The position numbers and the translations under genes are program-made. Shown in pieces: positions 1,918-29,864 of a DNA stretch of 64,000 nt. Where the stretch lies: contig NZ_CP060412.1 of NCBI RefSeq assembly GCF_014297575.1, forward strand, positions 2,294,001 through 2,358,000. Direction: 5' to 3'. Position 1 is the stretch's first letter. Every line of letters starts with the position of its first letter. The stretch is from Dyella telluris. GTDB taxonomy: Bacteria > Pseudomonadota > Gammaproteobacteria > Xanthomonadales > Rhodanobacteraceae. The notes beneath the pieces are model-generated. The model was not told the origin of the DNA, did not search any database, and worked only from the letters and a program-made list of their open reading frames with translations.

Positions 1918-2066
1918 TAAGTGCAGACTTTAGGTCGTCGGCACTTGTAGCTTCCTGCGCTCCCCATCAAAAGTCAATAGGCCCTCGCTGGGCCTACATG
2001 CCGCGCTTTGCCTCTGTGGTGGTCCATCTGGCCGCCCTTGGGAGAGTGCGGCCTGGAGGAGATCGC

Positions 2067-4526
2067 ATGGTAACAACTGCTCTAAAACTTGACCTGCCGT
2101 TCGTGGAACAGGAGCGGCTCGGTGGCCCCGACAAAACGCAGCGCCTAGAAAGCTACGGGCGAGCGGAATGTTCGCGATTCCAGATCGCACAAATTGAAGC
2201 CATGGCGGCCGATAGCGGTCTGCGCTTGGTCGGCAAGGGTGCGCTGAACAACATGCGCACCCGCTTCGTGTCCATTAAGAACAAAGCAGTGAGGGTTATC
2301 GAAAGCCACACCTGTGAACGAACATTTGCTTACCTGCTTGAGTTCGATCCTGGCGTTGTCGGCTACTACGTCCAAGTGCCTTGCCGGGGTATTGAGAGGA
2401 CCAACGAGAACGGTGCACGGCATGTTTCCCATGCCACGCTGGATTTCTTGGTCTTTCGCCTCGACTGCATTGAGCTCGTCGAGTGCAAAACCGAAGCGTG
2501 GCTGGAAGCCCACGAAGGTAAGGACGGATGGCATCGCGAGGGAGACGGGTGGACCTGCGATCCGTACAAGCAGTGGGCGGAAGCGCGAGGTCTCGTCTTC
2601 CGGGTATTTGTACTGACCGAGCCGTTTGCTAACCAGCTGCGTACGTTGGAAGCGATGTACGCAACGATGGATCTTCCGCTCACGAGGGAAGAGTTGCGTG
2701 TGGCCGAACGCGCAATTGCCCTGTTGGCGAAGAAGCCGTACTCCATCGAGGATATGGGTGAGACGCTTCCAGGATTCAACGGTCGTATTGCATTGAGCCT
2801 TCTCGCACAGCACAAATGCTACGGACTCGTGCAAAGCACGCCCTTCGATTTGCCGCAACACTTCTATCTGTACTCGGACCAGGAACAAGCCAGGCTGGCT
2901 GATGCCCAAGCATTCAGCGCGCTACGAACGACGATCGCTCAGCCTGCCGATCTGGATCCTCTTACCACCGCAAGCGCAACCGATCTTAAGTTCGCGCTTA
3001 AGCGGTACGAGATCGTGCAACGCATAGAGGCGGGACTCGAAAAAGGTTCCGTCCGCATGCGGAAACTTGTAGCCAACGTGCGTGAAGCGGTGTCGCAAGG
3101 CAAGCCAGCGCTCTCGGCCTGCCTTACTCAGTATGCGAAATCAGGCAACCGCGAGTCCCGGCTCGATCCGATGCAGCAAGAGTGCATGACGTGGGTTATC
3201 CGCGCGCTCTGGAACCGGGGAAAGGTAAGGACGCGGAAAAACCTGTGGTTCGAGCTCGAGAAGGAATGCCAGCGCCATCACGTTGTGACGCCGTCTCGTG
3301 AGACCCTCAATTACTACCTTCGACAGGACGATGCCACGAAGCGTGCACTTGCCGCGGGAGGTATGCGCGCCTATCAAGCTGCCAGGCCCATTTCAGACCC
3401 AACGCTTCGCTCGGGGAAGGCTATCGGCTACGGGCACACACTGCATATTGATTCGTCCCAGTTTGACGGCCGTTGCGGAAAGCAGGTCGAGGAAGCCTTT
3501 TCGGGCAACAAACCTTGGTTCTATATCGGCATCGACGAGGCGATTGAGAAGCCGATGGCTAAGGCCATCTATTTCGGAAAGGCCTGCACGAACGGTGTGG
3601 CGCTTCTGATGCGTGATTTTGTTCGACGTCATGGCTTCTTGCCGTTCGTGATTGTTCTGGACCGCGGATCGGAGAACGACTCCAAATGGCTACAAGCATT
3701 CTGCTTGGAAAAGGGCATCACGCTTATCCAATCCCCGACGGGTGGAAGCCGCTTCAACGGGCAGGCAGAAAGCGCCATCAAGCGCATTAATGAGAACGTC
3801 GCACATGATCTGCCTGGGTCCACGAAGCCCGATCAGAAGGGCCGCAAGGTCGACGGCAAGTACAAGAGCGAAAAGACTGCGCGTTTGACTTTTCACGTAT
3901 TGAATCAGGCGCTGGAGGACTACGCATTCAAGGACATGCCGGAAACACCCACCGACGACGATTACTCGCCAGACGACCGCATGGACGAGGCCATGAGTCG
4001 CTACGGAGTGATGGGACGTCCTCAAGTGCTCGACGATGATTACCTGATCAAGACCTCGGTAGATATCAAATTCACAGGGAAAGCCACCGAAAAGCGCGGG
4101 ATCAAGCTCGCTAGCGGGATCTTCACCAGCAAGCCGCTCAGCATCCTGCTGCGCCGATTTCAGCCCGAGGAAGTCCGGCAGGACTGTGAGAACGGGTCGC
4201 TGCTCTTCGTCAAGATTGGTGGGACATGGGTCAAGGCGTTTTTGAATGCGATCCTGACACTTGCATCGCAATCCGTAGAAGAGCGCCTCTTCGATCACTG
4301 TTGGGCGCCCTATGCACGGCGGAACGGACGTAAACGTGCGCAGGACTCTGATCGGAAGCGGTATCACCGACATCAGGAAGCCGAGGCTAGGGCCGAGGCC
4401 GCGGCAGCTCAAGCGGTGGTTGATGCCAAACAAGGGTCGGAGCAGCAGGACACTGAAGCGCCTGACGAGGATTTCGACGCATTGGACGCCTGGAACAACT
4501 GCGAACCCCTGACGGAGGAGGACTGA
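2067..4526 (+). CDS. TnsA-TnsB fusion transposase of a Tn7-like element
   Basis: The 819-aa protein starts at the ATG at 2067, behind GGAGGAG. The N-terminal ~250 residues look like the TnsA endonuclease: Glu92 in LLEFDP, Asp126 in TLDFLV and Lys141 in VECKT match the family's E-D-K active site. The rest is a TnsB-type DDE integrase with Asp462 (HIDSS), Asp532 (VLDRGSEN) and Glu568 (NGQAES), a 35-residue D-to-E spacing, then an Arg/Ala-rich C-terminal tail. TnsA cuts 5' ends and TnsB cuts and joins 3' ends, so the fusion should support cut-and-paste movement. It is followed after one base by tnsC and then tniQ. TnsAB fusions are known in some Tn7 relatives. Confidence 0.85.
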   Translation: MVTTALKLDLPFVEQERLGGPDKTQRLESYGRAECSRFQIAQIEAMAADSGLRLVGKGALNNMRTRFVSIKNKAVRVIESHTCERTFAYLLEFDPGVVGYYVQVPCRGIERTNENGARHVSHATLDFLVFRLDCIELVECKTEAWLEAHEGKDGWHREGDGWTCDPYKQWAEARGLVFRVFVLTEPFANQLRTLEAMYATMDLPLTREELRVAERAIALLAKKPYSIEDMGETLPGFNGRIALSLLAQHKCYGLVQSTPFDLPQHFYLYSDQEQARLADAQAFSALRTTIAQPADLDPLTTASATDLKFALKRYEIVQRIEAGLEKGSVRMRKLVANVREAVSQGKPALSACLTQYAKSGNRESRLDPMQQECMTWVIRALWNRGKVRTRKNLWFELEKECQRHHVVTPSRETLNYYLRQDDATKRALAAGGMRAYQAARPISDPTLRSGKAIGYGHTLHIDSSQFDGRCGKQVEEAFSGNKPWFYIGIDEAIEKPMAKAIYFGKACTNGVALLMRDFVRRHGFLPFVIVLDRGSENDSKWLQAFCLEKGITLIQSPTGGSRFNGQAESAIKRINENVAHDLPGSTKPDQKGRKVDGKYKSEKTARLTFHVLNQALEDYAFKDMPETPTDDDYSPDDRMDEAMSRYGVMGRPQVLDDDYLIKTSVDIKFTGKATEKRGIKLASGIFTSKPLSILLRRFQPEEVRQDCENGSLLFVKIGGTWVKAFLNAILTLASQSVEERLFDHCWAPYARRNGRKRAQDSDRKRYHRHQEAEARAEAAAAQAVVDAKQGSEQQDTEAPDEDFDALDAWNNCEPLTEED

Positions 4527-4527
4527 C

Positions 4528-5586
4528 ATGGCAAGGGTTCTTCCACATGCAAACTACGTTGAGCCGCGAAAGCAGCTCCAGAGGGCGCTTGCCAATCCGG
4601 CGCGCGGCCGATTCATCTGGGTCATTGGGCCATCAGGGGTGGGCAAGACGACCTTGCGCAGGTCGATCCTGCGTTCCATGTGCGGTGACCCTGCTCTATG
4701 GGGTGCAGGCAACATTCCCGTAATCGAGAAATTTGCTCTCCTCCCGAACAAGGCGTACTTCAATTCGCTATGGCTGGCGCAAAGTTTGGTTCGCGAGCTA
4801 TTTGTTCCCAACGTGAACTGGTTGCGTGACGACGACGACCTGGAAAATCCCACGTTCTTAGCCGTGACATCGGAGATCCAGCGGGCGCACCGATCGCTTC
4901 ACGGCGCCTTGCTGCCAAAGGGCTCCGAGCCAGCGATGTGGGAGCATTTCCAACGGCTTGCACCTCAAAGGAAGGTGTGGCTGACGGCCATCGACCAAGC
5001 GCACGCACTTTGTACGAACCACCGCAACAAGGACCCTGCAGACCACATCCTGAACCTGCTATCGATTCTCGATGTCACAGACATGAACTTCCTGCTTAGT
5101 GGCGTGCACGGCGCCGCCGACTTGTGGGCGGCACGTCCTGAAGTCAGGCGTCGATCCACGGTCATCTGGATGCCGCCCTACAGTTACGAGCGCCGGGGCG
5201 ACCGCGATCCTTTCCTAACGCTTGTGCGGACATTGGGCAAGGGATACACATTCTCTAAGCCTGGCTTGCTCTTTGGCATGGCGCCGGAGCTCATGGCTGC
5301 ATCGGCCGGTATATTTGGCGTTCTGAAAAAGATCCTCGTCGATGCAAAAGAGCGCGCAGATTTCGCTGGCCGTCGAGCCATCACGAAGGGCGACATCACC
5401 GCCTCGTACTACGGCAGTCGTGACTTAAAAAAGTTGTGGGACGATGTCGGCTTCTTCGAAGACGTCATGAAGTCCGCAGACACCTCATCGATTGCCAAGA
5501 ATGTGGCCAGTGCTTGGGGCATAGAGCGCAAACCGAAGGCCAAGAAGCCCACGAACGATGTTGGCCCTGATAAGGAGGCCGCGTGA
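4528..5586 (+). CDS. TnsC/TniB-like AAA+ transposition regulator
   Basis: This 352-aa ATPase has a Walker A motif at residues 34-42 (GPSGVGKTT) and a Walker B-like strand at 150-157 ending in Asp156-Gln157, where many family members have Asp-Glu. TnsC proteins bind ATP and DNA and link target selection (TniQ/TnsD) to the TnsA-TnsB transposase. The start lies one base after the tnsAB stop, behind a GGAGGAGG site, and the gene is followed one base later by tniQ, so all three are one operon. The Glu-to-Gln change at Walker B could slow ATP hydrolysis; that is inference. The Lys/Ala-rich tail is probably disordered. Confidence 0.85.
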   Translation: MARVLPHANYVEPRKQLQRALANPARGRFIWVIGPSGVGKTTLRRSILRSMCGDPALWGAGNIPVIEKFALLPNKAYFNSLWLAQSLVRELFVPNVNWLRDDDDLENPTFLAVTSEIQRAHRSLHGALLPKGSEPAMWEHFQRLAPQRKVWLTAIDQAHALCTNHRNKDPADHILNLLSILDVTDMNFLLSGVHGAADLWAARPEVRRRSTVIWMPPYSYERRGDRDPFLTLVRTLGKGYTFSKPGLLFGMAPELMAASAGIFGVLKKILVDAKERADFAGRRAITKGDITASYYGSRDLKKLWDDVGFFEDVMKSADTSSIAKNVASAWGIERKPKAKKPTNDVGPDKEAA

Positions 5587-5587
5587 T

Positions 5588-6952
5588 ATGGAACAGGTCT
5601 CGTTTGCTTGGACAGCTCTTCCATCGCTGAAGCTGCGAGGTCTGGGTACGCCGCTCGCGGAGCCCATCGATTACTACGTACTTCGGATGTCCTGGGTGAC
5701 GGGGTGGTCCGTGAACCAGCTGGCTACCCTCATGCAAGACGATCGCGAGGAGGGTTTTGGGCCGCTACGCCCCAGTTGTCACATCTTCGGGCACCGCAGG
5801 GAAGCGCAGATATCCGCATTTGAACAGCTCTCAGGAAATCCGGACCTACGATATGGAACTCTGTGGGTACTCAAGGAAGTACTCAATACCAAGGGGCTGT
5901 ATCGTCAGACTGGGGTGCCACGGCGCTGGTGTCCCGTTTGCTACCAAAAATGGGATAACGATACCGATTGGGAACCCCTGGTTTGGTCCATCCCTTACGT
6001 AAGTTGCTGCCCAACGCACGGGTGCGACCTGGTCAACGCGTGCCCTAGCTGTGGCAAGGAACAAAGTCGGGATACGGCGCTTGGTCTTCGCCTGCGTTGC
6101 GAGTCTTGCGACGCTCCATTGGGCGGTGAGGGAACGAAAACCGAGCGGGCTAAATTTTATGATTGGGTGGACCAGGAAATCCTTAAACTCGTGGCGTTCT
6201 GCTCAACGCCTGGCGAGCAGCTCGTACCCGCCGACACTCTGCTGCAGTTTGCGGAGGAGTTCGAAAACCATGCACGAAGCAAAGGCATTCTTCAAAAGGT
6301 TCGTCGATGTTTGGGTATGCAGCGTGGTGAGGCTTTTAACCGATCCATCTCCCTCAGCGCACTCATCAACTTCAGTGCGCTTCTCGGGGTCTCTGTGATC
6401 GATCTGCTCTCGCGACCCAAAGAGGCAATGAGCGCTCCGCTGCTGGACCTTTGGGATGGATTCCACTGGTTGTGCGACCCCTTTGCGGAGAAGAACGACG
6501 CCGTGCGTGCAGCGCGTTGGCTGGCGAAGAAGGTGCTCGCACGGCGCGGTCGCTGGTATATCCCCTCCATGCGCGTACTCACTAAGGATATCGGTGTATC
6601 CGCGTCGCGCCTGAAAGCCTTCGATCCTGAAAGTTATGGGGCTTACATCGATGCCTATTTGAAGCAGTGCCGCCCCGCGACTCGTTACACCCGGGGAGTG
6701 GCCTTTGCCGCGGCGCGGAATGAGATCGAAGACCAGAATCCGACGAACTGTACGCATTCGCGCATGTGGTGGCTTCCCCACCATGTAGAGAAGGTGGCAC
6801 CGGTCAATTTGGAAGACGCGTACTACGCTTCTTATGGCGCGATCGTGTACTGGCGCTTGCTCGCGCATGCTAAGAGTCACGCACAGGGGGCTGTTGCGGC
6901 AAAAGAGGACATTCGCTGGACTGAATCAGCACAGACGGGGATTGCGGCTTAG
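5588..6952 (+). CDS. TniQ/TnsD-family target-site protein
   Basis: The ATG at 5588, behind AAGGAGG, was chosen over an earlier in-frame codon inside tnsC. The 454-aa protein has the TniQ N-terminal pattern (residues 20-50, GTPLAEPIDYY then SVNQLATLM) and zinc-binding clusters: Cys115/Cys118 with Cys141/His144, and Cys152/Cys155 with Cys171/Cys174. TniQ/TnsD proteins choose the DNA target and recruit TnsC. The long C-terminal part (200-454) is likely the DNA-recognition region; the target cannot be predicted here. No Cas gene or CRISPR array is visible nearby, so this looks like a conventional, not RNA-guided, Tn7 relative. Confidence 0.85.
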   Translation: MEQVSFAWTALPSLKLRGLGTPLAEPIDYYVLRMSWVTGWSVNQLATLMQDDREEGFGPLRPSCHIFGHRREAQISAFEQLSGNPDLRYGTLWVLKEVLNTKGLYRQTGVPRRWCPVCYQKWDNDTDWEPLVWSIPYVSCCPTHGCDLVNACPSCGKEQSRDTALGLRLRCESCDAPLGGEGTKTERAKFYDWVDQEILKLVAFCSTPGEQLVPADTLLQFAEEFENHARSKGILQKVRRCLGMQRGEAFNRSISLSALINFSALLGVSVIDLLSRPKEAMSAPLLDLWDGFHWLCDPFAEKNDAVRAARWLAKKVLARRGRWYIPSMRVLTKDIGVSASRLKAFDPESYGAYIDAYLKQCRPATRYTRGVAFAAARNEIEDQNPTNCTHSRMWWLPHHVEKVAPVNLEDAYYASYGAIVYWRLLAHAKSHAQGAVAAKEDIRWTESAQTGIAA

Positions 6953-6967
6953 AGGTTTGCGGCACTG

Positions 6968-7004
6968 ATGAGGGGTGCCGCGTAAGCGGCATCCCTCATT
7001 TTGC
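6968..7004. terminator. Bidirectional terminator between convergent operons
   Basis: ATGAGGGGTGCCGC pairs with GCGGCATCCCTCAT around GTAA, with one G-T pair, and is followed by TTTTG. It separates tniQ (plus strand) from the end of the ParB/RepB operon (minus strand). Confidence 0.8.
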
Positions 7005-7026
7005 TTCAGGCTGGTCGAGCCAGACT

Positions 7027-7938
7027 TTAGCTGCCCGGGGGCGACGTGACCGACGAAGCCAGCGACGTCATTTCGGCTACTTCCTGAAACTCAGCCAGGT
7101 ACTCCGGTTGGTTGTCTTCCAGCCATTGGACAATGCTTGGTCTCTTAAGCCACTTGGACAAGTAGGCTTTGGCGATGGTCAGTTCTAGGACATCTTCGCC
7201 ATAGCTTTCTTCGATGTACTTAGTTCGCTTCTGCGCCGCGGATAGTTCGCGTTCAAGGCGAGCGATCTGCTCGCGCGAGATGTCCTGTGGCCCATCTTTT
7301 GCTCTCTTGAGTACGAGTTGGTCATCCGGCGTGGCAGCCAGAATGGTCTTGACGAAGCCAGACGAATAGTTCTTCTGCCCGATCATGAGCTCCGTGGCCT
7401 CGATCTGACGCATGGGCTTCATCTTCTTCAGCACTTCGAACACGTTCTTGGGGCATGGGCCATCCGCGAGAAGCTCGACGACTTCGTCGCATATGCCATC
7501 CAGCATCCGAAAGCGCCGCCGAACCGTAGAAACGTCCAACCGTAGCGCGCGCGCAAGCCGGTCCTCGTGAGCTCCCTGCTCAATGGCACGGACGACCATC
7601 TTGTGTTCTTGGACCGCGGAAAGCCGGCTGATGCGCTTGTTATATGTATAAGCTTCGTCATCGGTGGCGACGAGGCACTCCACCTCGGTCCACCCCAGTT
7701 CCTTCGCTATTTCAATGCGCAGGAGTCCATCGAGGAGGTAATACGTACCTTCTTTCTGTGGGTTGGGTACGACGACAGGGCACTCGACCATGCCTATTTC
7801 GTGGATGGATGCGGCGATCTGGGCGTACTTATGGCTCTGTTTGAGGGCCGCGCGCATCGCCTTCAGAGGAACGATGGCGTCGAGCGGGATCACGCGAGTC
7901 TCGCTCTCAAAACCGGGCGGCGGCATCTTGTTGTTCAT
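7027..7938 (-). CDS. ParB-like protein with RepB-type C-terminus
   Basis: This 303-aa protein has a ParB N-terminal fold (residues 15-90, with LLDGLLRIEIAKELG at the nucleotide-pocket position), a helix-turn-helix around 115-140 (EDRLARALRLDVSTVRRRF) and a C-terminal half like the plasmid partition RepB C-terminal domain. ParB/RepB proteins bind DNA sites and CTP to organise DNA. No ParA is encoded beside it, so ordinary partition is unlikely. Its ATG overlaps the stop of the preceding gene as ATGA, so it is co-translated with the other ParB-like protein, and both follow a serine recombinase. A role in control or targeting of recombination is inference. Confidence 0.75.
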   Translation of the reverse strand: MNNKMPPPGFESETRVIPLDAIVPLKAMRAALKQSHKYAQIAASIHEIGMVECPVVVPNPQKEGTYYLLDGLLRIEIAKELGWTEVECLVATDDEAYTYNKRISRLSAVQEHKMVVRAIEQGAHEDRLARALRLDVSTVRRRFRMLDGICDEVVELLADGPCPKNVFEVLKKMKPMRQIEATELMIGQKNYSSGFVKTILAATPDDQLVLKRAKDGPQDISREQIARLERELSAAQKRTKYIEESYGEDVLELTIAKAYLSKWLKRPSIVQWLEDNQPEYLAEFQEVAEMTSLASSVTSPPGS

Positions 7939-8819
7939 GGCGCGCCTCCCTTGGCCATCCTGCGTTCGAGTGGGCTTGGGATGGTGTCGAGCCCCTCTTT
8001 GCGGAGGATGGCCACGAATGATGCTTCTAGCCGGAGATGTTTGAGAGCCTGGACGACAAAGAAAAGCCGCGTCTGCGTGAAGTCCGCTGTCTTGGCCAAG
8101 AGTTGCTGTTTGCCAACTTCCCGCTCAAAGATCCGTCGGAGATTCTCTGCGGTAAGCTTTCTGCTCCCTTTGCGGTTTATCCCCGATGAATGACGCTCGT
8201 TCTTCCCGCGTAGCGCCCGTTGATCCAGGATCTTCCGAAGCAGGGCGAGCTTCTTTCCTTTGACGACGCCATGCGTGTAGGCATCGGCCAGCGCCTCCTG
8301 TATCCCCGCGTCATCGCTTCTAGCAATGGTCACGGCGAGGCTGACGGGGACGATGCCCTTTTCGACGGCGGCGAGGAGGCGCTCTTCGCCCCGCTCGAGC
8401 AAACCGAGGATCATGTTTACCCAGGAGGCGGTCACGCCGAGCTTGTCGGCAACCTCGGTGTCGTTGTAGCCGCGCCGATGCAGGCTCTCGATTTCCCGCA
8501 TGAGCTCCACGGCCTGGTGCTGGCGTCGCGCGATGTTCTCGACGAGGCTCATGACCATGCAATCTTCCTCATCGGCGGTAATGACGATGCAAGGGATGCG
8601 GTCCATTCCAAGAATCTGATATGCCTCAAGACGGCCTTGTCCACAGACCAGGTCGAACTCCTCCTTCCCATCATCGCTGGCCCGTCTTGTGACCGTGATG
8701 GGGCGCTTGAGGCCGATCTTTTCTATGTTCTCCACAATGGCCCGGTACTGGCGCTGGTTTCGGGCTCGAGGGTTGAGCACATGGATCTGAGATACGGGTA
8801 CGAGCTCAATGGTTCGCAT
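7935..8819 (-). CDS. ParB/RepB/Spo0J-family protein
   Basis: This 294-aa protein has the ParB N-terminal domain: a start typical of the family (IELVPVSQIHVLNPRARN), the CGQGRLEAY box near residues 57-66 and ENIARRQ near 93-99. A central HTH follows (EVADKLGVTASWVNMIL, about 118-135). The C-terminal third is less conserved and may mediate dimerisation. It lies 13 bases after the recombinase gene and overlaps the second ParB/RepB gene by four bases, so it is the middle gene of a three-gene operon. It should be a sequence-specific DNA-binding protein; the sites are not identifiable here. Confidence 0.75.
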   Translation of the reverse strand: MRTIELVPVSQIHVLNPRARNQRQYRAIVENIEKIGLKRPITVTRRASDDGKEEFDLVCGQGRLEAYQILGMDRIPCIVITADEEDCMVMSLVENIARRQHQAVELMREIESLHRRGYNDTEVADKLGVTASWVNMILGLLERGEERLLAAVEKGIVPVSLAVTIARSDDAGIQEALADAYTHGVVKGKKLALLRKILDQRALRGKNERHSSGINRKGSRKLTAENLRRIFEREVGKQQLLAKTADFTQTRLFFVVQALKHLRLEASFVAILRKEGLDTIPSPLERRMAKGGAP

Positions 8820-8832
8820 ACCAGTCCTCCGT

Positions 8833-10416
8833 TCAAGCGGCTCTGGCGAAGGCCGATCTCCCTGTCAGAGCGATCAAGGGTTCAAGGGAATCGAAGCGAT
8901 AGGCGTCCAAGGTGACAGCGTTGTTGTCCTCAGCTAGACGGAGCGGATGAATCGGTAGGTCAATGCGAGGAAAGAAGTAGTAGTCGAGGATAGTGTGCTG
9001 GTCGGCCGCCAGGCGTGCGACCAAAGTAATGTCCGGCGCGAGGCTGGTATCGAACCGGATTCGCCAGCGGAAGGCCCCGCTGATGAGTTGAAGGCAGCGG
9101 GTCAAGACCACTGACAGCGTGAACTCGTCATTGATCCACATGAGGTTCGATTGGCTGGGATCAGCACTGACGTTGCCGCACACCTTCTTAAGGTCAGCCA
9201 CGACGTTTTCGACGACATCCGGGAGCATTTGCCGCAAAGATCGGTTGATCTCGATGTACCGGTAATCTCGCTGGGCGCGAAAGCCGATCAACGAGTACGC
9301 TCGAACGAGCCCGCCAAAGCGACTGGCGTAGATATGGCTTGAGGGCATCCCTTCCTGCTCGTCTATGAGTAGGCCTGACAGGGTGCCCGTTCTTTCGTAG
9401 AGGCCTCGAAGCATCGCGAGCATCGCATCGCTATCGAGGTGCTCGGACCGAGCGGCAACAATGGCCTGGACTCGCTCAAATAGTTCGGGTGCGATGATGG
9501 AGTCGAACGCGCCATTGTGGCGAATCCACATGTCCTCGGCGTTCCGCACCCGCTTCTGCTTCAGCTTGAAGGAAGTGTGGTTATAGACGTTGTTGCCGAT
9601 GTACTTCTCGTTCGTCAGGATCTGGTGGATCGTGCCTCGCGTCCATGGGCGACCTTGGTCAGTCGTCAGTCCCAACGAGTTCAGTTCATCAGCTATGGCT
9701 CGCTCGTTCTTCTTCGCATGGAGAAAGGAGCGGTAGATCTCACGAACGACTGCGATTTCTTCGTCGGGGCCAGGCACAAGCACGACCCGATCAGTCTGGA
9801 GGCTCTTTTGCTCTCCACGGCCAAGTTGGCCCTTGGGCATGCGTTGTTCGTCCAGGAGCATCCTGCGAAGGCCGTAGCCAGGTGCCCCGCCTTGGCGGAA
9901 GCCGAGTTCTATAAGGCGGCATTGGCCCTGAAACACTTTGTTGGACAGCTCCCGGCTGTATTCGCCGGCCATGGCGCGCTTGACGCTCTTCATGATGGTC
10001 GCCATGGGGCTGCCATCGTTTTCGAAGGGCTCAGTGCAGTAGAAGACCTTTATCCCCGAGCGCCGGCACAAGTATTCGTAGTACGCACTTTCGTCGGCGT
10101 CCTGAAACCGGCCCCAGCGACTAATGTCGTAGACCAGAACGGCCCCGAAATCCGGAGAACCGGACTCGACATCGTGGATAAGTCGTTTGAGAGCGTCTCT
10201 GCCTTCAAGGCTCAGGCCGCTCTTGCCCTCGTCCGCATAGGTACGAACGATGTCCATCCCGTGCTGGGTGGCGTATTTCGCAATGGCGGCCTGTTGATTC
10301 TCGGTTGAGTAGCGCTGGTGGTCAGTGGACATGCGCACGTACTGGGCAGCCCTGAGGGGCAACCCAAGAACACCTTCCGACGGCGTTTCCGCCTTCCAGC
10401 CCACTGCCGCTCCCAT
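8833..10416 (-). CDS. Large serine recombinase
   Basis: The 527-aa protein begins at the ATG at 10416, with AGGG eight bases upstream; a GTG six bases earlier is possible. The resolvase domain occupies residues 22-170, with catalytic Ser30 in YVRMSTD, the DEGKSG box and VYDISRWGR. A recombinase domain follows (QGGAPGYGLRR to DQGRPWTRGTIHQILTNEKYIGN), then a long C-terminal DNA-binding region. Such enzymes integrate and excise elements at att sites. It heads an operon with two ParB/RepB-like genes. The usual zinc-ribbon cysteines of phage integrases are not evident, so this is a subfamily variant. Confidence 0.85.
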   Translation of the reverse strand: MGAAVGWKAETPSEGVLGLPLRAAQYVRMSTDHQRYSTENQQAAIAKYATQHGMDIVRTYADEGKSGLSLEGRDALKRLIHDVESGSPDFGAVLVYDISRWGRFQDADESAYYEYLCRRSGIKVFYCTEPFENDGSPMATIMKSVKRAMAGEYSRELSNKVFQGQCRLIELGFRQGGAPGYGLRRMLLDEQRMPKGQLGRGEQKSLQTDRVVLVPGPDEEIAVVREIYRSFLHAKKNERAIADELNSLGLTTDQGRPWTRGTIHQILTNEKYIGNNVYNHTSFKLKQKRVRNAEDMWIRHNGAFDSIIAPELFERVQAIVAARSEHLDSDAMLAMLRGLYERTGTLSGLLIDEQEGMPSSHIYASRFGGLVRAYSLIGFRAQRDYRYIEINRSLRQMLPDVVENVVADLKKVCGNVSADPSQSNLMWINDEFTLSVVLTRCLQLISGAFRWRIRFDTSLAPDITLVARLAADQHTILDYYFFPRIDLPIHPLRLAEDNNAVTLDAYRFDSLEPLIALTGRSAFARAA

Positions 10417-10450
10417 CCCCACGGCCCTGAGGCTTGGGATGATTAGGCAA

Positions 10451-11354: not shown

Positions 11355-11600
11355 ATGCACACGACGAAACACTTCCAACAGCGAATGTCCCATCGAGGTA
11401 TCACCAAAGCGATGGTGGACATTGTGATGAGCTACGGAGAGGCAGAGGGGGACAAGGTGGTCCTTAACCGTAGGAATTCTGGCCGATTGCTTGAGGCTGT
11501 TCGGACTCTAGTCAAGATTCTGGATAAGGGTGGCTTGGTGGTTGTGACCAGCGGCGACGCCCAGCTGACCACGTACAACTACCAAGGGCGTTGCAATTGA
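11355..11600 (+). CDS. DUF4258-like small protein
   Basis: The ATG at 11355 lies nine bases after GGAG and gives an 81-aa product; an ATG at 11337 is less well supported. The N-terminus (HFQQRMSHRGIT) has the His..Arg-Met..Arg-x-Ile pattern of DUF4258 proteins, a small fold often compared with RelE-like toxins. It ends two bases before the methylase-like gene, so the two are co-transcribed and likely linked in function. It may be a nuclease or toxin-like accessory of the restriction locus; the family similarity is seen by eye and the activity is unproved. Confidence 0.55.
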   Translation: MHTTKHFQQRMSHRGITKAMVDIVMSYGEAEGDKVVLNRRNSGRLLEAVRTLVKILDKGGLVVVTSGDAQLTTYNYQGRCN

Positions 11601-11602
11601 AT

Positions 11603-13447
11603 ATGTCCACCGACAATGCCGGGCAGGTGCTGTTCCAGGTTCAAGACCTACTGCGCAATTCTCCCCTGGCTTCCAACGAATCAGGTCTACTGGCCTTCCA
11701 GCTTCTCGTGTGGGCGCAACTCTCCACTAAGGGCAAGCTCGATCTAGATAGCACCGTGGATGCGGCCCTGGCGCACGGCGCCACCGGCATAGTCGATGCG
11801 CTTAGCAGACTGGCTTTGACGGATGGCCCGATGGGTCAAGCCTTTGGCGATGCTGCGCGTAGGGCCCAATTCTCCGGTGACTACATCGTTTCGGCGGTAA
11901 CGGCAGCAAAGCGCCTAGCCGACGGAGGGATCTTCGAGCGCTTTTCACCAGCAGACGTCGTGGCCCACTTGCCACAGATAGGCACAGAACCCGTCACCGT
12001 CCCAGCAGAGGTGGCGAGGCTGATGGTTAACTTGGTTGTGAAAGGGGACCAGAGCTCGGTCTATAGCCCGTGGGAGTCCAGTGGACAGTTCGTTGGCGCG
12101 TTGCTTAACCAGCATGTCAGCCTATACGTCGAAACTCCATTCTCGACACCACTCCCGGCGCTCCTGAGCTTGTTCCGTGAGGCACCTACAGAAATGGTCC
12201 TCGCTAACCCGCTGCGCTCGCCCACGGCTATAAAAGGCGGACACCTGCAAAAGTTTGACGCGGCACTGTCAATCCCGCCGCTGAACATGGTCGTCAGCGA
12301 CGAAGCAGCGATGACCGATCTATATGGCCGCTTCCCGATCAAGAAGGCCACTTGGAACGGGCTCAACGTGCTACACATCGTGGCTCAGACCGGTGGCAAG
12401 GCAGCCATCATTGTCGCTAACAGCTTCTTGTTCGGACCTGGCAGGGACAGGGAGGTGCGCGAGTATCTGCTCCACAAGGGAATGGTGGAGGCGGTTATCG
12501 CATTGCCTGCTGGTCTGTTCAACATCACCAACATTCCATCAGCCTTGCTGCTACTCGATACGCAAGCCAATTGCCGCAAGGTTGGCTTTGTTGATGCCAC
12601 CCGGCCGTACTTCACCAAGGCGCTCAACAAAGGTAAGACGACGCTCGTCAACACCAACGCCATTGTCAGTTTCTGCAGTGCCTTGATGGGCGAACAGAGC
12701 GTGCTGGCGGCCGATGCGTTGGATGACACACTCGCTGTTGTCACTCCTGTCGAGGACATCCTCGGCAATGAGGCGTCATTGCAGGTTGATCGCTATGTAA
12801 TGGCCCACGAACAACGCAATTTGCAGGCGTGGCTGCGGGCAATGCCTACGGTCGCACTAGAAGATCTCGCCGACTTCCACAATCCCATCCCGAACAAGGA
12901 CCGCAACTCAGGTGCTCCTGCAGCGATCGAGGTCTATGAGGTGGGAGCGGCTGATCTGCCAAGCGCGGGATACATTGCCACTCCTGAGAAAACGGTCAGC
13001 GTGCAGCTGTCTAGCCGTCGTTCCGGCAACGCAGAAGAGGCTTTTCTTCGCCAAGGTGACGTTCTCCTTATTACCAAGGGCAGCGTGGGCAAAGTAGGTA
13101 TCGTGCCGGCCGATGTGCCGCCTGCAGGACCGGGCGGTTGGGTAGCCGGGCAATCGGCCATCGTTCTACGCGGCAGAGGTCAGTACGGCGATCTACGTGG
13201 CCTGGGACTTTGGATGCGCTCGCAAATGGGCAGAGACGTGCTCGCTGGCATTACATCGGGCGCCACCATCCCAATGATCTCGATTCAGACACTGCGCAGA
13301 CTCCAAGTGCCTGTCCTAACGCTAGAAGCCACACATCGTGCCGTAGAGGTGCTTAATCGTGAGGCAGAGATCCAGCGGGGGATTGAAGCCTTAAGAACTG
13401 AACAAGCCGGTCTGTCCGAACGGCTTTGGAATGAGCTACTGAACTGA
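11603..13447 (+). CDS. N6-methylase-like protein with degenerate motifs, fused to an HsdS-like region
   Basis: This 614-aa protein has the layout of a type I methylase core (residues about 1-380) followed by a specificity-like region (about 400-600; GDVLLITKGSVGKVG and the final IQTLRRLQVPVLTLEATHRAVEVL resemble HsdS target-recognition modules). The catalytic motifs are altered: the SAM-binding position reads YSPWESSGQF (154-163) where HsdM has DPTCGTGGF, and the NPPF position reads IPPL (224-227). Methylation activity is therefore unlikely. It sits between a DUF4258 gene and an intact hsdM-hsdS-hsdR set. A regulatory or DNA-recognition role, or a separate system, is inferred. Confidence 0.7.
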   Translation: MSTDNAGQVLFQVQDLLRNSPLASNESGLLAFQLLVWAQLSTKGKLDLDSTVDAALAHGATGIVDALSRLALTDGPMGQAFGDAARRAQFSGDYIVSAVTAAKRLADGGIFERFSPADVVAHLPQIGTEPVTVPAEVARLMVNLVVKGDQSSVYSPWESSGQFVGALLNQHVSLYVETPFSTPLPALLSLFREAPTEMVLANPLRSPTAIKGGHLQKFDAALSIPPLNMVVSDEAAMTDLYGRFPIKKATWNGLNVLHIVAQTGGKAAIIVANSFLFGPGRDREVREYLLHKGMVEAVIALPAGLFNITNIPSALLLLDTQANCRKVGFVDATRPYFTKALNKGKTTLVNTNAIVSFCSALMGEQSVLAADALDDTLAVVTPVEDILGNEASLQVDRYVMAHEQRNLQAWLRAMPTVALEDLADFHNPIPNKDRNSGAPAAIEVYEVGAADLPSAGYIATPEKTVSVQLSSRRSGNAEEAFLRQGDVLLITKGSVGKVGIVPADVPPAGPGGWVAGQSAIVLRGRGQYGDLRGLGLWMRSQMGRDVLAGITSGATIPMISIQTLRRLQVPVLTLEATHRAVEVLNREAEIQRGIEALRTEQAGLSERLWNELLN

Positions 13448-24537: not shown

Positions 24538-25440
24538 GTGTTGTCAGCCCTTTTTGAAGTGACTTACCGACGTGACCTGTGCCTTCAATCGGGCCCTGCA
24601 ACCATCGTTCCGGCAGCCAAGATCAGGCTTTTGAAATCCGCGCCAAGGACAAGCGAAGGGCTAAGCGTTGTCAAGGTTACTGAGGACGAAAGGGTTCTCC
24701 TGTTCGGTGACTTTTCCGGATTCCACCTCTACGTAATCGTCACCCACACCAAGTTTCGAGTCGACCCGTCAAGTGTTCGCGCCATGAAGGGGGACAGGTT
24801 CTCGGCGACTGTCTACTGTGAGCCCATGAACCATGGGCGGGAGGCCGCTCGCCATTCGCGCGTGCTGCAGCTTTGGTTCAAAAGCCCTGTGCTCCACGCT
24901 GAACACGTCGAAGCCTGCGCGTATGGCAACGAGCCGAATGGCTTTGCCTTCCATGTTCCTGGTTGTGGCGTCCAGAAATACTTTTGCGACATGGCCTTCG
25001 TAACCGGCTATAGCACCAGGCCTGTCACCATTCCTGCGAACATCGAATACATCGGTATGTCCGCAAGGGGTGGAAGTGAAGTACATAGCCGCTTCCAAGG
25101 AGGGCATGACAAGCTTGAATCTGTCCTTTCAGAGCTGGTGCAGCGCCAGTCGTTTTGCGACGTGTCGATTTTGGTGTACAAGCCCGGTGAGCTCGAGGCG
25201 AACTTGGCATTCCACACCGTCGTAGAAATCCTTGAGGCGGGGCTCATTGGCCACTTTAAGCCAAAGCACAATACAGAGCATCGAAACTTTCCCTCTTCCG
25301 CGCACAAGCTGACGGGCGCAGCGCGGTCCCTCGGAGCCAACGGCTTGAAGCTCCAGTTGGAAGCGCCAAAGAACGTCGTCCTGTATTCAGACGGCCAGCC
25401 CCTTCCGCGAAACATTCACGATGCGGACTACGACCTATAA
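24538..25440 (+). CDS. GIY-YIG-like nuclease-related protein
   Basis: The 300-aa product starts at a GTG behind GGAG. I do not recognise the N-terminal ~160 residues, which contain clustered Cys and His (for example VPGCGVQKYFCDM). The C-terminal half fits the GIY-YIG nuclease pattern: IEYIGMSA near 169-176, an Arg about ten residues on, GGHDKL, then a Glu in VVEILEAGLIGHF followed by KPKHN. Those positions match the family's YIG, Arg, Glu and Asn residues, although the first strand is IEY rather than GIY. It stands alone after the McrBC locus and may be a DNA nuclease or toxin; the activity is inferred. Confidence 0.6.
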   Translation: MLSALFEVTYRRDLCLQSGPATIVPAAKIRLLKSAPRTSEGLSVVKVTEDERVLLFGDFSGFHLYVIVTHTKFRVDPSSVRAMKGDRFSATVYCEPMNHGREAARHSRVLQLWFKSPVLHAEHVEACAYGNEPNGFAFHVPGCGVQKYFCDMAFVTGYSTRPVTIPANIEYIGMSARGGSEVHSRFQGGHDKLESVLSELVQRQSFCDVSILVYKPGELEANLAFHTVVEILEAGLIGHFKPKHNTEHRNFPSSAHKLTGAARSLGANGLKLQLEAPKNVVLYSDGQPLPRNIHDADYDL

Positions 25441-26416: not shown

Positions 26417-26842
26417 ATGAATCAACAGCAACTGTTATTGGCTGCATTGGCGTCGGGGAGTCATGATGACTTTTCGCCCGTACAGCTGCAAAAGCTCATG
26501 TTCTTGATAGATCGCAACATCGGGCCGGCGATCGGTGGACCCTTTTTCAAGTTTGCGCCCTACGACTACGGCCCGTTCGATGTAGGCGTGTACCACGCAT
26601 TCGGCGCCTTGGAGATGATGGGGCTGGCCGAATCATTCGGGTCAGGGAAGGAACGTCGGTACCGAGTAAATGAGTCTGGTCGAGCAATGGCAGTCGATGT
26701 GCTCAACAGAATCCATCCTGAGTACAGTAAGTACATTGCCGAAGTTGCCCATTTTGTGCAGAGACTTTCCTTCACAGCGCTGGTGTCGTCGATTTATAAG
26801 AGCTATCCGGAGATGAAGGTCAACAGCGTATTCAGGGGATGA
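26417..26842 (+). CDS. SocA/Panacea (DUF4065)-like protein
   Basis: The 141-aa protein starts behind AGGGGGGAT. It has the Panacea/SocA layout: FSPVQLQKLMFLID near residues 18-31, a YGPFDVGVY box near 54-62, a small winged-helix-like middle with a YRVNESGRAMA turn, and a closing IYKSYPEM segment. Members of this family act as antitoxins or as adaptors that present proteins for degradation (SocA, PanA). The next gene, three bases away, encodes a proteasome-like Ntn-hydrolase, so a link between recognition and proteolysis is attractive. That link is inference; the family call itself is fairly firm. Confidence 0.7.
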   Translation: MNQQQLLLAALASGSHDDFSPVQLQKLMFLIDRNIGPAIGGPFFKFAPYDYGPFDVGVYHAFGALEMMGLAESFGSGKERRYRVNESGRAMAVDVLNRIHPEYSKYIAEVAHFVQRLSFTALVSSIYKSYPEMKVNSVFRG

Positions 26843-26845
26843 TGG

Positions 26846-27601
26846 GTGACTGCTCTTGTAGGGATTTATTGCAGGGACGGTGTTGTCATTGGGGCTGACA
26901 GCGCAGCCACATCGTCAGCGGCAGGCGGGATGCGGACCATAGAGCAGCCCGTCATGAAGATTGAGATTGTGGACGAGCGGCTGATCATTGCAGGCACTGG
27001 ACAGATTGGTCTCGGGCAGCGCTTTTCAGCCAGAACCAAGGATCTTTGGCAAGCAAAAAAGTTCTCTGGCCTGGACCCAATCCCCTCCGCGAACATGATG
27101 GCCGCGAACGCGATTCAAGACTTCACCTCGACGAACGCCCCGAGGGGACAATACGGCGCGCTGGTAGCTTTTCCATCCAAGGGTGACCGCCATCTTGTGG
27201 AGTTTGCAATCGACGACTTCCAACCGGAGTTTAAGAACGCAAACCTTTGGTATGTGTCCATGGGGAGCGGTCAAACCATCATCGACCCGCTCCTGGGTCT
27301 GATGCGAGAGGTGTTCTGGAGCGATGGGCCGCCTAGCATTCAAGACGCTATTTTTGCGACGACCTGGATGCTCGACCATGCTGTGGCGGTCAATCCCGGA
27401 GGGGTAAATGCGCCCGTCCGCCTGGCCATCCTGGAGAAGTCTCGAGACGAGTGGAAAGCCAGGCTGTTGACCGAAGATGAGTTACTTGAACATCGAGACA
27501 ATGTCGGCGCTGCCAAGGGGGCGCTCCGGAACTACAAGAGCCATATGGCCCACAGCGAGGGTGCGGTGGAGTTGCCGCCGGTCCCCGCGACGGCTGGTTG
27601 A
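26846..27601 (+). CDS. Proteasome-family Ntn-hydrolase-like protein
   Basis: The 251-aa product starts at a GTG three bases after the SocA-like gene. If the initiator Met is removed it begins TALVGIYCRDG, like a mature proteasome beta subunit or HslV: Thr1 would be the nucleophile, Asp17 falls exactly where the family has it (VIGADSAATS), and Lys37 in VMKIEIV matches Lys33 after a short insertion. The region NPGGVNAPVRLAIL resembles the family's D..SGG strand but has Asn-Pro there. No propeptide is present. It may be a peptidase or an inactive relative; it is not HslV, as no HslU is nearby. Confidence 0.65.
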   Translation: MTALVGIYCRDGVVIGADSAATSSAAGGMRTIEQPVMKIEIVDERLIIAGTGQIGLGQRFSARTKDLWQAKKFSGLDPIPSANMMAANAIQDFTSTNAPRGQYGALVAFPSKGDRHLVEFAIDDFQPEFKNANLWYVSMGSGQTIIDPLLGLMREVFWSDGPPSIQDAIFATTWMLDHAVAVNPGGVNAPVRLAILEKSRDEWKARLLTEDELLEHRDNVGAAKGALRNYKSHMAHSEGAVELPPVPATAG

Positions 27602-27816: not shown

Positions 27817-28650
27817 ATGAGAATTCAAAAAGCAGACCCTCGCGTCTCTTATCGCAACAATCCGTTGGTCGAAGTGATATGCCAGGCTCGCTTCAGGCGG
27901 TCGGAAATCCTTGAGCGACCACCCGGTTTATTGGAGGACCTCGCGTCAGAAGGTTATACAAACGTCGCTGAAGTCAGTCCGGTGAATATCCACATCAATG
28001 TGGTCGGCCAGCAGGTTGGTGGAACGGAAGTTCGCGAGTCAGTTTCTCCGGCCATGGCAGGAGGATTGCAGTCTTACAACTGTGTAACCCCAGACGACAA
28101 TTGGACAGTGTCGTTCAATGCTGAGTCTGTTTCGCTCTCGTGCAAGAAGTATTCGAGCTGGTCGGAATTTCAGCCGAGGCTTGTCAAAGCGATCGAACTA
28201 TACGGAAAGTGGTATCCAGGTACTAAGGCGGTTCGACTTGGCCTGCGATACAAGGACGTGATTGACAGAAACAAGCTTGGATTGGCTCATCGAGAGTGGC
28301 ACGCGCTCATTGAACCGTTCCTCCTGGGGGCTCTATCGCTCAATGTTTTCGTCGATGATGGCGCGATTCCCGACTCCGAAGTAGCCGGATGCCTGACGCA
28401 GGCGCTTGTTAGGTTAGAAGGCTGCTCGCTCACGCTACAGAGCGCGCTGCTGCGGTCTGTGGCTGACGACAAGAAAACCGTTTTTCTGATTGACTCCGAT
28501 TTTTCCAAGGACTCGGAAGAAATTTCGGAATTGGCGAATTCGGCAGAGGTACTAAGAACCAATTTGAAAGTGTTGCACGAACATGCCGGAACACTGTTTC
28601 GGCGCGTGATCAAGGAGGAATTGCATGGCGCTCTCGAACCTATTAGCTGA
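27817..28650 (+). CDS. TIGR04255-like protein
   Basis: The 277-aa protein opens with YRNNPLVEVICQARF, the hallmark start of the sporadically distributed TIGR04255 family (x-NxPLxEVxxQxRF). The rest alternates strands and helices (for example RLGLRYKDVIDRN near 148-160), with no membrane segment or known catalytic motif. The function of the family is unknown, but members often occur in variable islands. Its 3' end overlaps the next gene by 26 bases and that gene's GGAGG site lies inside it, so the two are coupled. A 215-base gap without recognisable features separates it from the proteasome-like gene. Confidence 0.7.
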   Translation: MRIQKADPRVSYRNNPLVEVICQARFRRSEILERPPGLLEDLASEGYTNVAEVSPVNIHINVVGQQVGGTEVRESVSPAMAGGLQSYNCVTPDDNWTVSFNAESVSLSCKKYSSWSEFQPRLVKAIELYGKWYPGTKAVRLGLRYKDVIDRNKLGLAHREWHALIEPFLLGALSLNVFVDDGAIPDSEVAGCLTQALVRLEGCSLTLQSALLRSVADDKKTVFLIDSDFSKDSEEISELANSAEVLRTNLKVLHEHAGTLFRRVIKEELHGALEPIS

Positions 28651-29119
28651 CCAGAATTACGCAGAAGTCGAGGCTGTTTACGGCGGCGAACGGATGTTTG
28701 CGGCTGCAGGCTTGCGTCACATGGCGACGTTGGCAGTCCCCGGCTACGGGAGCCCCATCCACACCGGTGGAACGGAAACGTGGACTTGGGACTACTTGTT
28801 TCGACAAACGCAGCACGCCCTGCTTACTGAAGCCTGGCGCAAGTTTCTGATTGACGTCGATGCGGCAACTGATTCGGCCACGTTGCAGGTCACGGCGGAC
28901 GTGGCGTTCAAGACTATTCGAGAGAAGGGACCAGCCGGTTTCGATCTGTCGACACTAGAACCTGGTCAAGTCAACGGCGAGCACCTGGTCATGTTGCTGC
29001 GTTGCATTTCGTCTTGGAGAACGCTTTTGCCTGGCTGGGATCGAGCAATCGGGATTGCCAAGCTAGCGCTGGAATCTGAAGGCAAAGATCCTGAGGACGT
29101 CCTCTTCGGAATGCTTTGA
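28625..29119 (+). CDS. Hypothetical protein, middle gene of the TIGR04255 operon
   Basis: The 164-aa product starts behind a strong AGGAGG site located within the preceding gene. I recognise no family. It is acidic and mostly helical in its second half, with a central Trp-rich stretch (TETWTWDYLF near 50-59), and has no signal peptide or membrane segment. It is wedged between the TIGR04255-like gene (26-base overlap) and a peptidase-like gene (four-base gap), so it is most likely a partner or adaptor of one of them. Confidence 0.65.
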   Translation: MALSNLLADQNYAEVEAVYGGERMFAAAGLRHMATLAVPGYGSPIHTGGTETWTWDYLFRQTQHALLTEAWRKFLIDVDAATDSATLQVTADVAFKTIREKGPAGFDLSTLEPGQVNGEHLVMLLRCISSWRTLLPGWDRAIGIAKLALESEGKDPEDVLFGML

Positions 29120-29123
29120 GATT

Positions 29124-29864
29124 ATGGTATTGGCACCGCTTAACCCAATTACATTTGGGCATGATGAAGTGGTCGTCACCCTGTCGCAGGGGCGTACGGA
29201 TCACGGCCACACCGGTCTTGGCTTTTGGGACGAGCAGGGTGTTCCGAACGTCTATCATTTGGATGGACATCATCGAGTCCTCCTAGAGCCCGCGGCGGCG
29301 AAGCAGGGTGCTTGGCTGACCGAACCAGTTCCAATTCCGCCCACTGCCCTCAAGCAATTGGCCGTATATGTCCGGGGCGTCGTCAAATCGCTCTGCCAGC
29401 AGGGCGGAACCGTCGACTATGGGATCGACTTCATTGCGGCCAAGGGGAGCTTCGCCGAGAACGGCGACTACACCCCGCCGGTCGGCTCTACCGGGCTCAC
29501 GTGCTCTTCATTTGTTGTCGAATTGCTGAGGGGTTTCCACCTCAATTTGATTGATGAGACAACGTGGCAGTCGTCCGAGGACAACGTGAAGTGGGCGACT
29601 GGCCTTGCCGAGATCTTCGACAACGTAGCAAAGCAAGTACGTGCTGCGAATCAAGGCGACGCGCTGGCGCAAATGTTTGAAGAACGCGCACGAGTCATTA
29701 CCGCTGCTGCGCCTCAAGGTCTACGGCTGTTGCCTACCGAAGTTGCCGGCGCCGTATCTATGCCGCCGGATCGATGGCCGGTGGCCTACAACGATGCTCA
29801 AGGGCCGGCGCACCAGGCGCGAGCGGTACTCAGCGAAGCGGTAGCCGCCGCCACTACAGGTTGA
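29124..29864 (+). CDS. Permuted papain-like (NlpC/P60 or YiiX-type) peptidase candidate
   Basis: The 246-aa protein has a His early (HTGLGFWD near 29-36, then VYHLDGH) and a Cys later (GLTCSSFVVELLRG near 124-137). This His-before-Cys order and the CSSFV helix resemble the permuted NlpC/P60 or YiiX-like papain fold, in which Cys is the nucleophile. No signal peptide is seen, so it probably acts in the cytoplasm. It is the last gene of a three-gene operon with a TIGR04255-like and an unknown protein. A peptidase or amidase effector role is inferred; fold prediction would settle it. Confidence 0.55.
   Translation: MVLAPLNPITFGHDEVVVTLSQGRTDHGHTGLGFWDEQGVPNVYHLDGHHRVLLEPAAAKQGAWLTEPVPIPPTALKQLAVYVRGVVKSLCQQGGTVDYGIDFIAAKGSFAENGDYTPPVGSTGLTCSSFVVELLRGFHLNLIDETTWQSSEDNVKWATGLAEIFDNVAKQVRAANQGDALAQMFEERARVITAAAPQGLRLLPTEVAGAVSMPPDRWPVAYNDAQGPAHQARAVLSEAVAAATTG

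Follow-up and report, generated by a model that had tools for sequence, protein, structure and literature searches.

We analysed a 64,000-nucleotide stretch of the Dyella telluris genome (NZ_CP060412.1, positions 2,294,001 to 2,358,000 of the forward strand; hereafter the window), in which a gene for a SocA/Panacea-like protein is directly followed by a gene for a proteasome-like N-terminal nucleophile (Ntn) hydrolase. The two belong to a real, strongly conserved two-gene module, made of a Panacea-type protein and a proteasome-type threonine hydrolase. Both open reading frames (ORFs) were confirmed, separated by a gap of 3 bases:

26417..26842, plus strand: SocA/Panacea-like protein of 141 amino acids, with a Panacea-like fold that has winged-helix features
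26846..27601, plus strand: proteasome-like Ntn hydrolase of 251 amino acids, with a GTG start and no propeptide

The initial annotation of the locus had placed a SocA/Panacea-type gene three bases from a proteasome-like gene, and its coordinates, spacing and Panacea assignment by fold held up. It had also made its proposal depend on recurrence of the pair and on an Ntn-hydrolase fold; both checks came out in its favour, and the recurrence is strong. A genome scan of one genome per species (84,980 species) found at least 95 relatives; the 80 loci retained from them comprise 30 hydrolase family members (L001-L030) and 50 archaeal proteasome-type matches (L031-L080). As L028 begins inside the gene, 29 genome loci were testable for a SocA neighbour. 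A SocA homologue adjoins the hydrolase in 28 of them, the sole exception being L009; among the 28, L020 and L023 are partial, and L007 and L011 are two copies at separate places of one Latescibacteria chromosome. By their record titles these 28 loci, mostly metagenome bins, span nine bacterial phyla (Pseudomonadota, Chloroflexota, Acidobacteriota, Nitrospirota, Nitrospinota, Latescibacterota, Planctomycetota, Bacteroidota and a candidate phylum) and one archaeon. Among viral contigs, two scans for the protease picked out seven distinct ones, each with SocA adjoining (that of L115 lies only partly on the contig), and whole-genome searches gave one extra pair, L120. In total, SocA lies next door in 36 of 37 hydrolase loci, or 37 of 38 counting the window. 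As controls, SocA was found nowhere in the 50 archaeal proteasome-type loci (L048, L053, L063 and L073 having less than 450 bases upstream) and in none of the 13 weak matches of the whole-genome searches.

When viral contigs were viewed from the SocA side, a protease adjoined 12 of 20 loci, six of them on contigs also found by the protease scans and one (L093) with a broken protease. Two of the remaining loci stop at a contig edge and six have no adjoining protease: L085-L087 represent one element that keeps the protease gene start only, and L096, L102 and L104 have other neighbours. The protease had no match in annotated records of phages or plasmids; SocA had none in those of phages, and in those of plasmids it matched six distant haloarchaeal entries. 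The pair is uncommon: apart from the window, strong matches were found in 0/147 relatives, 0/397 genomes of the order, 0/368 of the class and 1/397 of the phylum; these sets overlap, and in the last three scoring was confined to the top 6 or 7 candidates of each genome.

The hydrolase has a predicted proteasome beta fold (H1-H4 and a C-terminal helix, long insertions absent) and matches the Pfam Proteasome model at 30.3 bits, above the cut-off of 22.4; all 64 aligned family members match this model at E<=0.01. Its catalytic site is intact, with the residues that define the proteasome family (N-terminal Thr, Asp17, Lys33 and an oxyanion Gly), so that the Ntn assignment of the initial annotation was borne out by both fold and residues. 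Thr2, Asp18, Lys38 and Gly52 are invariant in 64/64 aligned members and in 38/38 intact pairs, a set from which copies that are broken, incomplete or duplicated were left out (L009, L011, L020, L023, L028, L085-L087, L093 and L115); Gly140 and Ser141 are likewise invariant in the 38. By sequence alone the best match among PDB chains reached only E 0.38, and no family of the PADLOC-DB 2.0.0 profiles matched at E<=0.1. HslV and BPH were absent among the structural matches listed, which excludes neither. Such enzymes had been called rare in proteobacteria outside HslV and Anbu in the initial annotation; this we correct, since the available text of PMC8665760 describes 22 new proteasome-like prokaryotic families. 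The proteasome-like families treated there (BPH, Anbu, connectase, WPH, PMI and others) share the fold and the catalytic Thr, Asp, Lys and Gly, and no genomic contexts suggestive of function are reported for them there, whereas the context found here is nearly obligate. Lacking long insertions, the hydrolase model looks unlike the PMI families as these are described.

Several features mark the pair as a unit. The genes lie -4 to +8 bases apart in 36 of the 37 same-strand intact pairs and 25 bases apart in one; the L017 pair is convergent. A GTG or TTG start was seen in 10 of the 37 protease genes. The pair also has the properties by which PanAT loci are recognised in PMC8832971 (a two-gene locus, with the genes no more than 100 bases apart, that recurs in two or more species). 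Flanking genes vary by locus: only eight clusters of the 476 neighbour ORFs from 33 loci span at least three loci. Seven of them occur in the Chloroflexi group L024-L026, where inheritance may therefore be vertical, two of these also in L029 and L030, and the eighth unites L002, L007 and L009. No third conserved gene emerged: TIGR04255, McrB, McrC and the other window neighbours had no homologue at E<=0.01 among the ORFs of the 33 other loci. The protease tree (26 of the 38 pairs, with viral pairs and L120 left out) intermixes phyla and joins Methanolinea to an alphaproteobacterium with support 95/93. Phylum labels changed 11 times on it against a shuffled mean of 14.6, a value as low in 1 of 200 shuffles, so within-group inheritance also contributes. 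The distance matrices of the two partners correlate (r 0.652, 0 of 5000 permutations), which shows joint inheritance and by itself is no proof of contact. We rejected one candidate for a natural SocA-protease fusion, the single open frame of L020, in which the SocA part is truncated. Among the 7997 candidates sharing most words with this frame, 66 proteins of 198-287 amino acids were matched, none of which spans more than 67% of the query, and no fusion was seen.

The window SocA-like protein carries a YGPF motif at residues 51-54, at the position where PanA has GPV, and a conserved C-terminal tail, YPxMKxNSVF. Its PADLOC matches were PDC-M19A (7.5e-11), a type I specificity model (1.8e-7) and DarG (5.6e-7), and it stayed below the cut-offs of the DarG (15 bits; cut-off 250) and SocA (12.6 bits; cut-off 190) models. 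PF13274 was found in 16 of 120 SocA homologues among the matches listed, and in 17 of 51 at E<=0.01. No further Panacea gene was found in the window's own genome by PF13274, a model that also missed the window SocA. Among solved structures its closest relative is an antitoxin domain, the DarG chain of 7yk3, which blocks its toxin, going by a title (PMC12170906).

The pair is most likely a toxin-antitoxin or defence unit. Our preferred reading, which we put at close to even, is a mobile toxin-antitoxin-like module with the Panacea-like antitoxin first and the proteasome-like hydrolase second. Partner binding, toxicity, neutralisation, trigger, substrate and oligomeric state are what we infer in it. 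The hydrolase gene would be translated directly behind the SocA gene, and removal of the methionine would expose the catalytic Thr1. The Panacea-type protein would bind the hydrolase and hold it inactive, and it probably senses a trigger, for example infection. Once released or switched, the hydrolase would cleave cell or phage proteins, or ligate them like its relative connectase, and so stop growth or infection. A bolder version, for which we have somewhat less confidence, is an inter-domain, phage-borne toxin-antitoxin or abortive-infection module, with a proteasome-family threonine protease or protein ligase as effector checked by the Panacea-type protein, and with the SocA copies that phages retain once the protease is lost acting as counter-defence antitoxins.

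Known systems offer partial parallels. PanAT (PMC8832971, PMC10440598) is likewise a two-gene, antitoxin-first, close-spaced and mobile system with a Panacea-type protein, but the effector here is a proteasome-type Ntn hydrolase of putative toxicity; the word proteasome does not occur in the main texts of the two papers, a statement that does not extend to the supplementary toxin list. DarTG differs in that 141 amino acids are too short for a macrodomain and that no ADP-ribosyltransferase serves as effector here. SocAB of Caulobacter shares a small Panacea-type protein tied to proteolysis; there, however, SocA delivers SocB to the host protease ClpXP, according to the available text of PMC8832971, whereas here the partner is itself a protease gene. 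No paper on the pair was found in the open-access literature; subscription papers, preprints and supplementary tables lay outside this search, and the pair may have been noticed before, with Dataset S1 of PMC8832971 the likeliest place.

Decay of some copies fits loss of a toxin with retention of its antitoxin, in few cases that include metagenome assemblies: the protease frame is broken and the SocA frame kept in L085-L087, L093, L115 and L023, and both genes are damaged or lost in L009. Several points weigh against a toxin-antitoxin module. L020 is the reverse case, with SocA truncated and the protease intact to the contig end, and the asymmetry of 4 to 1 is not significant and proves nothing. 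The window SocA-like protein scores 14.2 bits with the Panacea model (PF13274), below the cut-off of 25.7, and its likeness to DarG is insignificant by sequence (E 0.37). Many neighbour families outside the window belong to ordinary metabolism and not to defence. The conserved SocA tail is not confined to proteins with a protease partner, as haloarchaeal relatives beside non-protease genes end in NSVW, NSKL or ESVI. Partners can also activate such enzymes, as HslU and HbYX tails do.

This last possibility is the chief rival: the SocA-like protein may activate or gate a self-compartmentalising protease, or serve as its substrate adaptor, so that the pair forms a miniature recogniser-protease machine. 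We consider it rather unlikely. Caulobacter SocA acts as a proteolytic adaptor for ClpXP, but the tested PanA proteins do without ClpXP or Lon (available text of PMC8832971). No AAA+ family was present among the neighbour Pfam families (best 25 of 112 and best 25 of 96), so its partner may have to be of a different kind. The SocA tail is strongly conserved (N136 in 34, S137 in 37 and F139 in 36 of the 38 intact pairs), and in the single-chain model its final seven residues adopt no secondary structure, which would suit a docking tail. Model confidence in the tail is not low, however (mean predicted local distance difference test score 85 for residues 131-140, with only the last residue low, at 58), and similar tails occur in relatives without a protease; a loose NSVF-like ending was seen in 117 of 120 SocA homologues among the matches listed. 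The case for the NSVF tail as a protease-specific docking signal is thus weakened, as relatives with other neighbours end alike. The nearest solved relative, a toxin-blocking antitoxin domain, favours a restrainer over the recogniser with its own peptidase seen in the initial annotation, without proof, and both roles stay among the main readings.

It is improbable that the SocA-like protein is a mere winged-helix transcriptional repressor of the pair and the hydrolase an unrelated stress protease; its fold does have winged-helix features, and no operator palindrome was found. On viral contigs, where twenty hand-picked proteins were scanned, the pair or a protease-less SocA lies beside terminase (L085, L091, L102, L115), portal (L094, L102), head (L098) or integrase (L090) genes, and L101 has a weak virion-protein match. 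It is nevertheless very improbable that the hydrolase serves phages in head maturation or packaging and that the chromosomal copies are prophage remnants, since protease genes are broken in such cassettes (L085, L115), the picked proteins of L089, L090, L093, L095 and L100 fall in tail, helicase, integrase, transglycosylase or unknown families or in none, and the best 25 of 112 and best 25 of 96 neighbour Pfam families of genome contigs include no phage structural family.

Bacterial proteasome relatives are an open question, with many families and almost no functions (available text of PMC8665760). A near-obligate partner from a class known for antitoxins makes one such family a testable two-protein system. 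If the toxin-antitoxin reading is right, proteasome-type enzymes would also have been put to use as toxins or immune effectors, and proteases would join the other, unrelated toxins that Panacea-type antitoxins restrain.

Upstream of the pair, the window carries Tn7-like genes, two proteins of RepB/ParB type, a serine recombinase, type I restriction genes and McrBC. The further features are:

1998-10422: Tn7-like set (842-amino-acid protein, AAA protein, TniQ) with two neighbouring genes of RepB/ParB type and a large serine recombinase; the defence genes lie downstream
11591-13447: extra N6-methylase-type gene, directly before type I hsdM-hsdS-hsdR
24538-25440: ORF of 300 amino acids between McrBC and the pair, no family match
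27817-29864: three tightly spaced genes, for a TIGR04255-family protein (117.5 bits) and proteins of 164 and 246 amino acids, the 246-amino-acid one without a family match

Pfam named the AAA protein and TniQ, and the preceding 842-amino-acid protein had no Pfam match. The three genes behind the pair had no homologue in the 33 other loci scanned; the TCSSFVVELL stretch of the 246-amino-acid protein presumably resembles NlpC/P60 cysteine peptidases. Defence genes adjoin the pair in one island, the window's, so the defence island of the initial annotation stands for this locus, and we claim no enrichment elsewhere. PADLOC and Pfam scans of neighbours (two batches, each with 105 of its 106 picked ORFs, the two omitted being very long ORFs of L015 and L030) did show restriction or AbiE genes among some neighbours at other loci, the highest family counts being PbeA 5/105 and ResIII 6/105 (totals, not per locus).

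Other arrangements of Panacea-like genes were also seen. Between terminase and portal genes, L102:3389-4219 encodes a Panacea-like domain whose C-terminal extension is long, and L096:4001-5217 holds two Panacea-like genes in tandem without a protease. In Methanolinea, a second Panacea-like domain (L016:3518-4342, E 1.3e-10) lies on the opposite strand directly behind the pair, with a fused C-terminal domain that we take to resemble DUF488. The haloarchaeal plasmid SocA relatives of L107 and L108 are in convergent orientation to DUF6338 genes, which may be a further partner of Panacea proteins.
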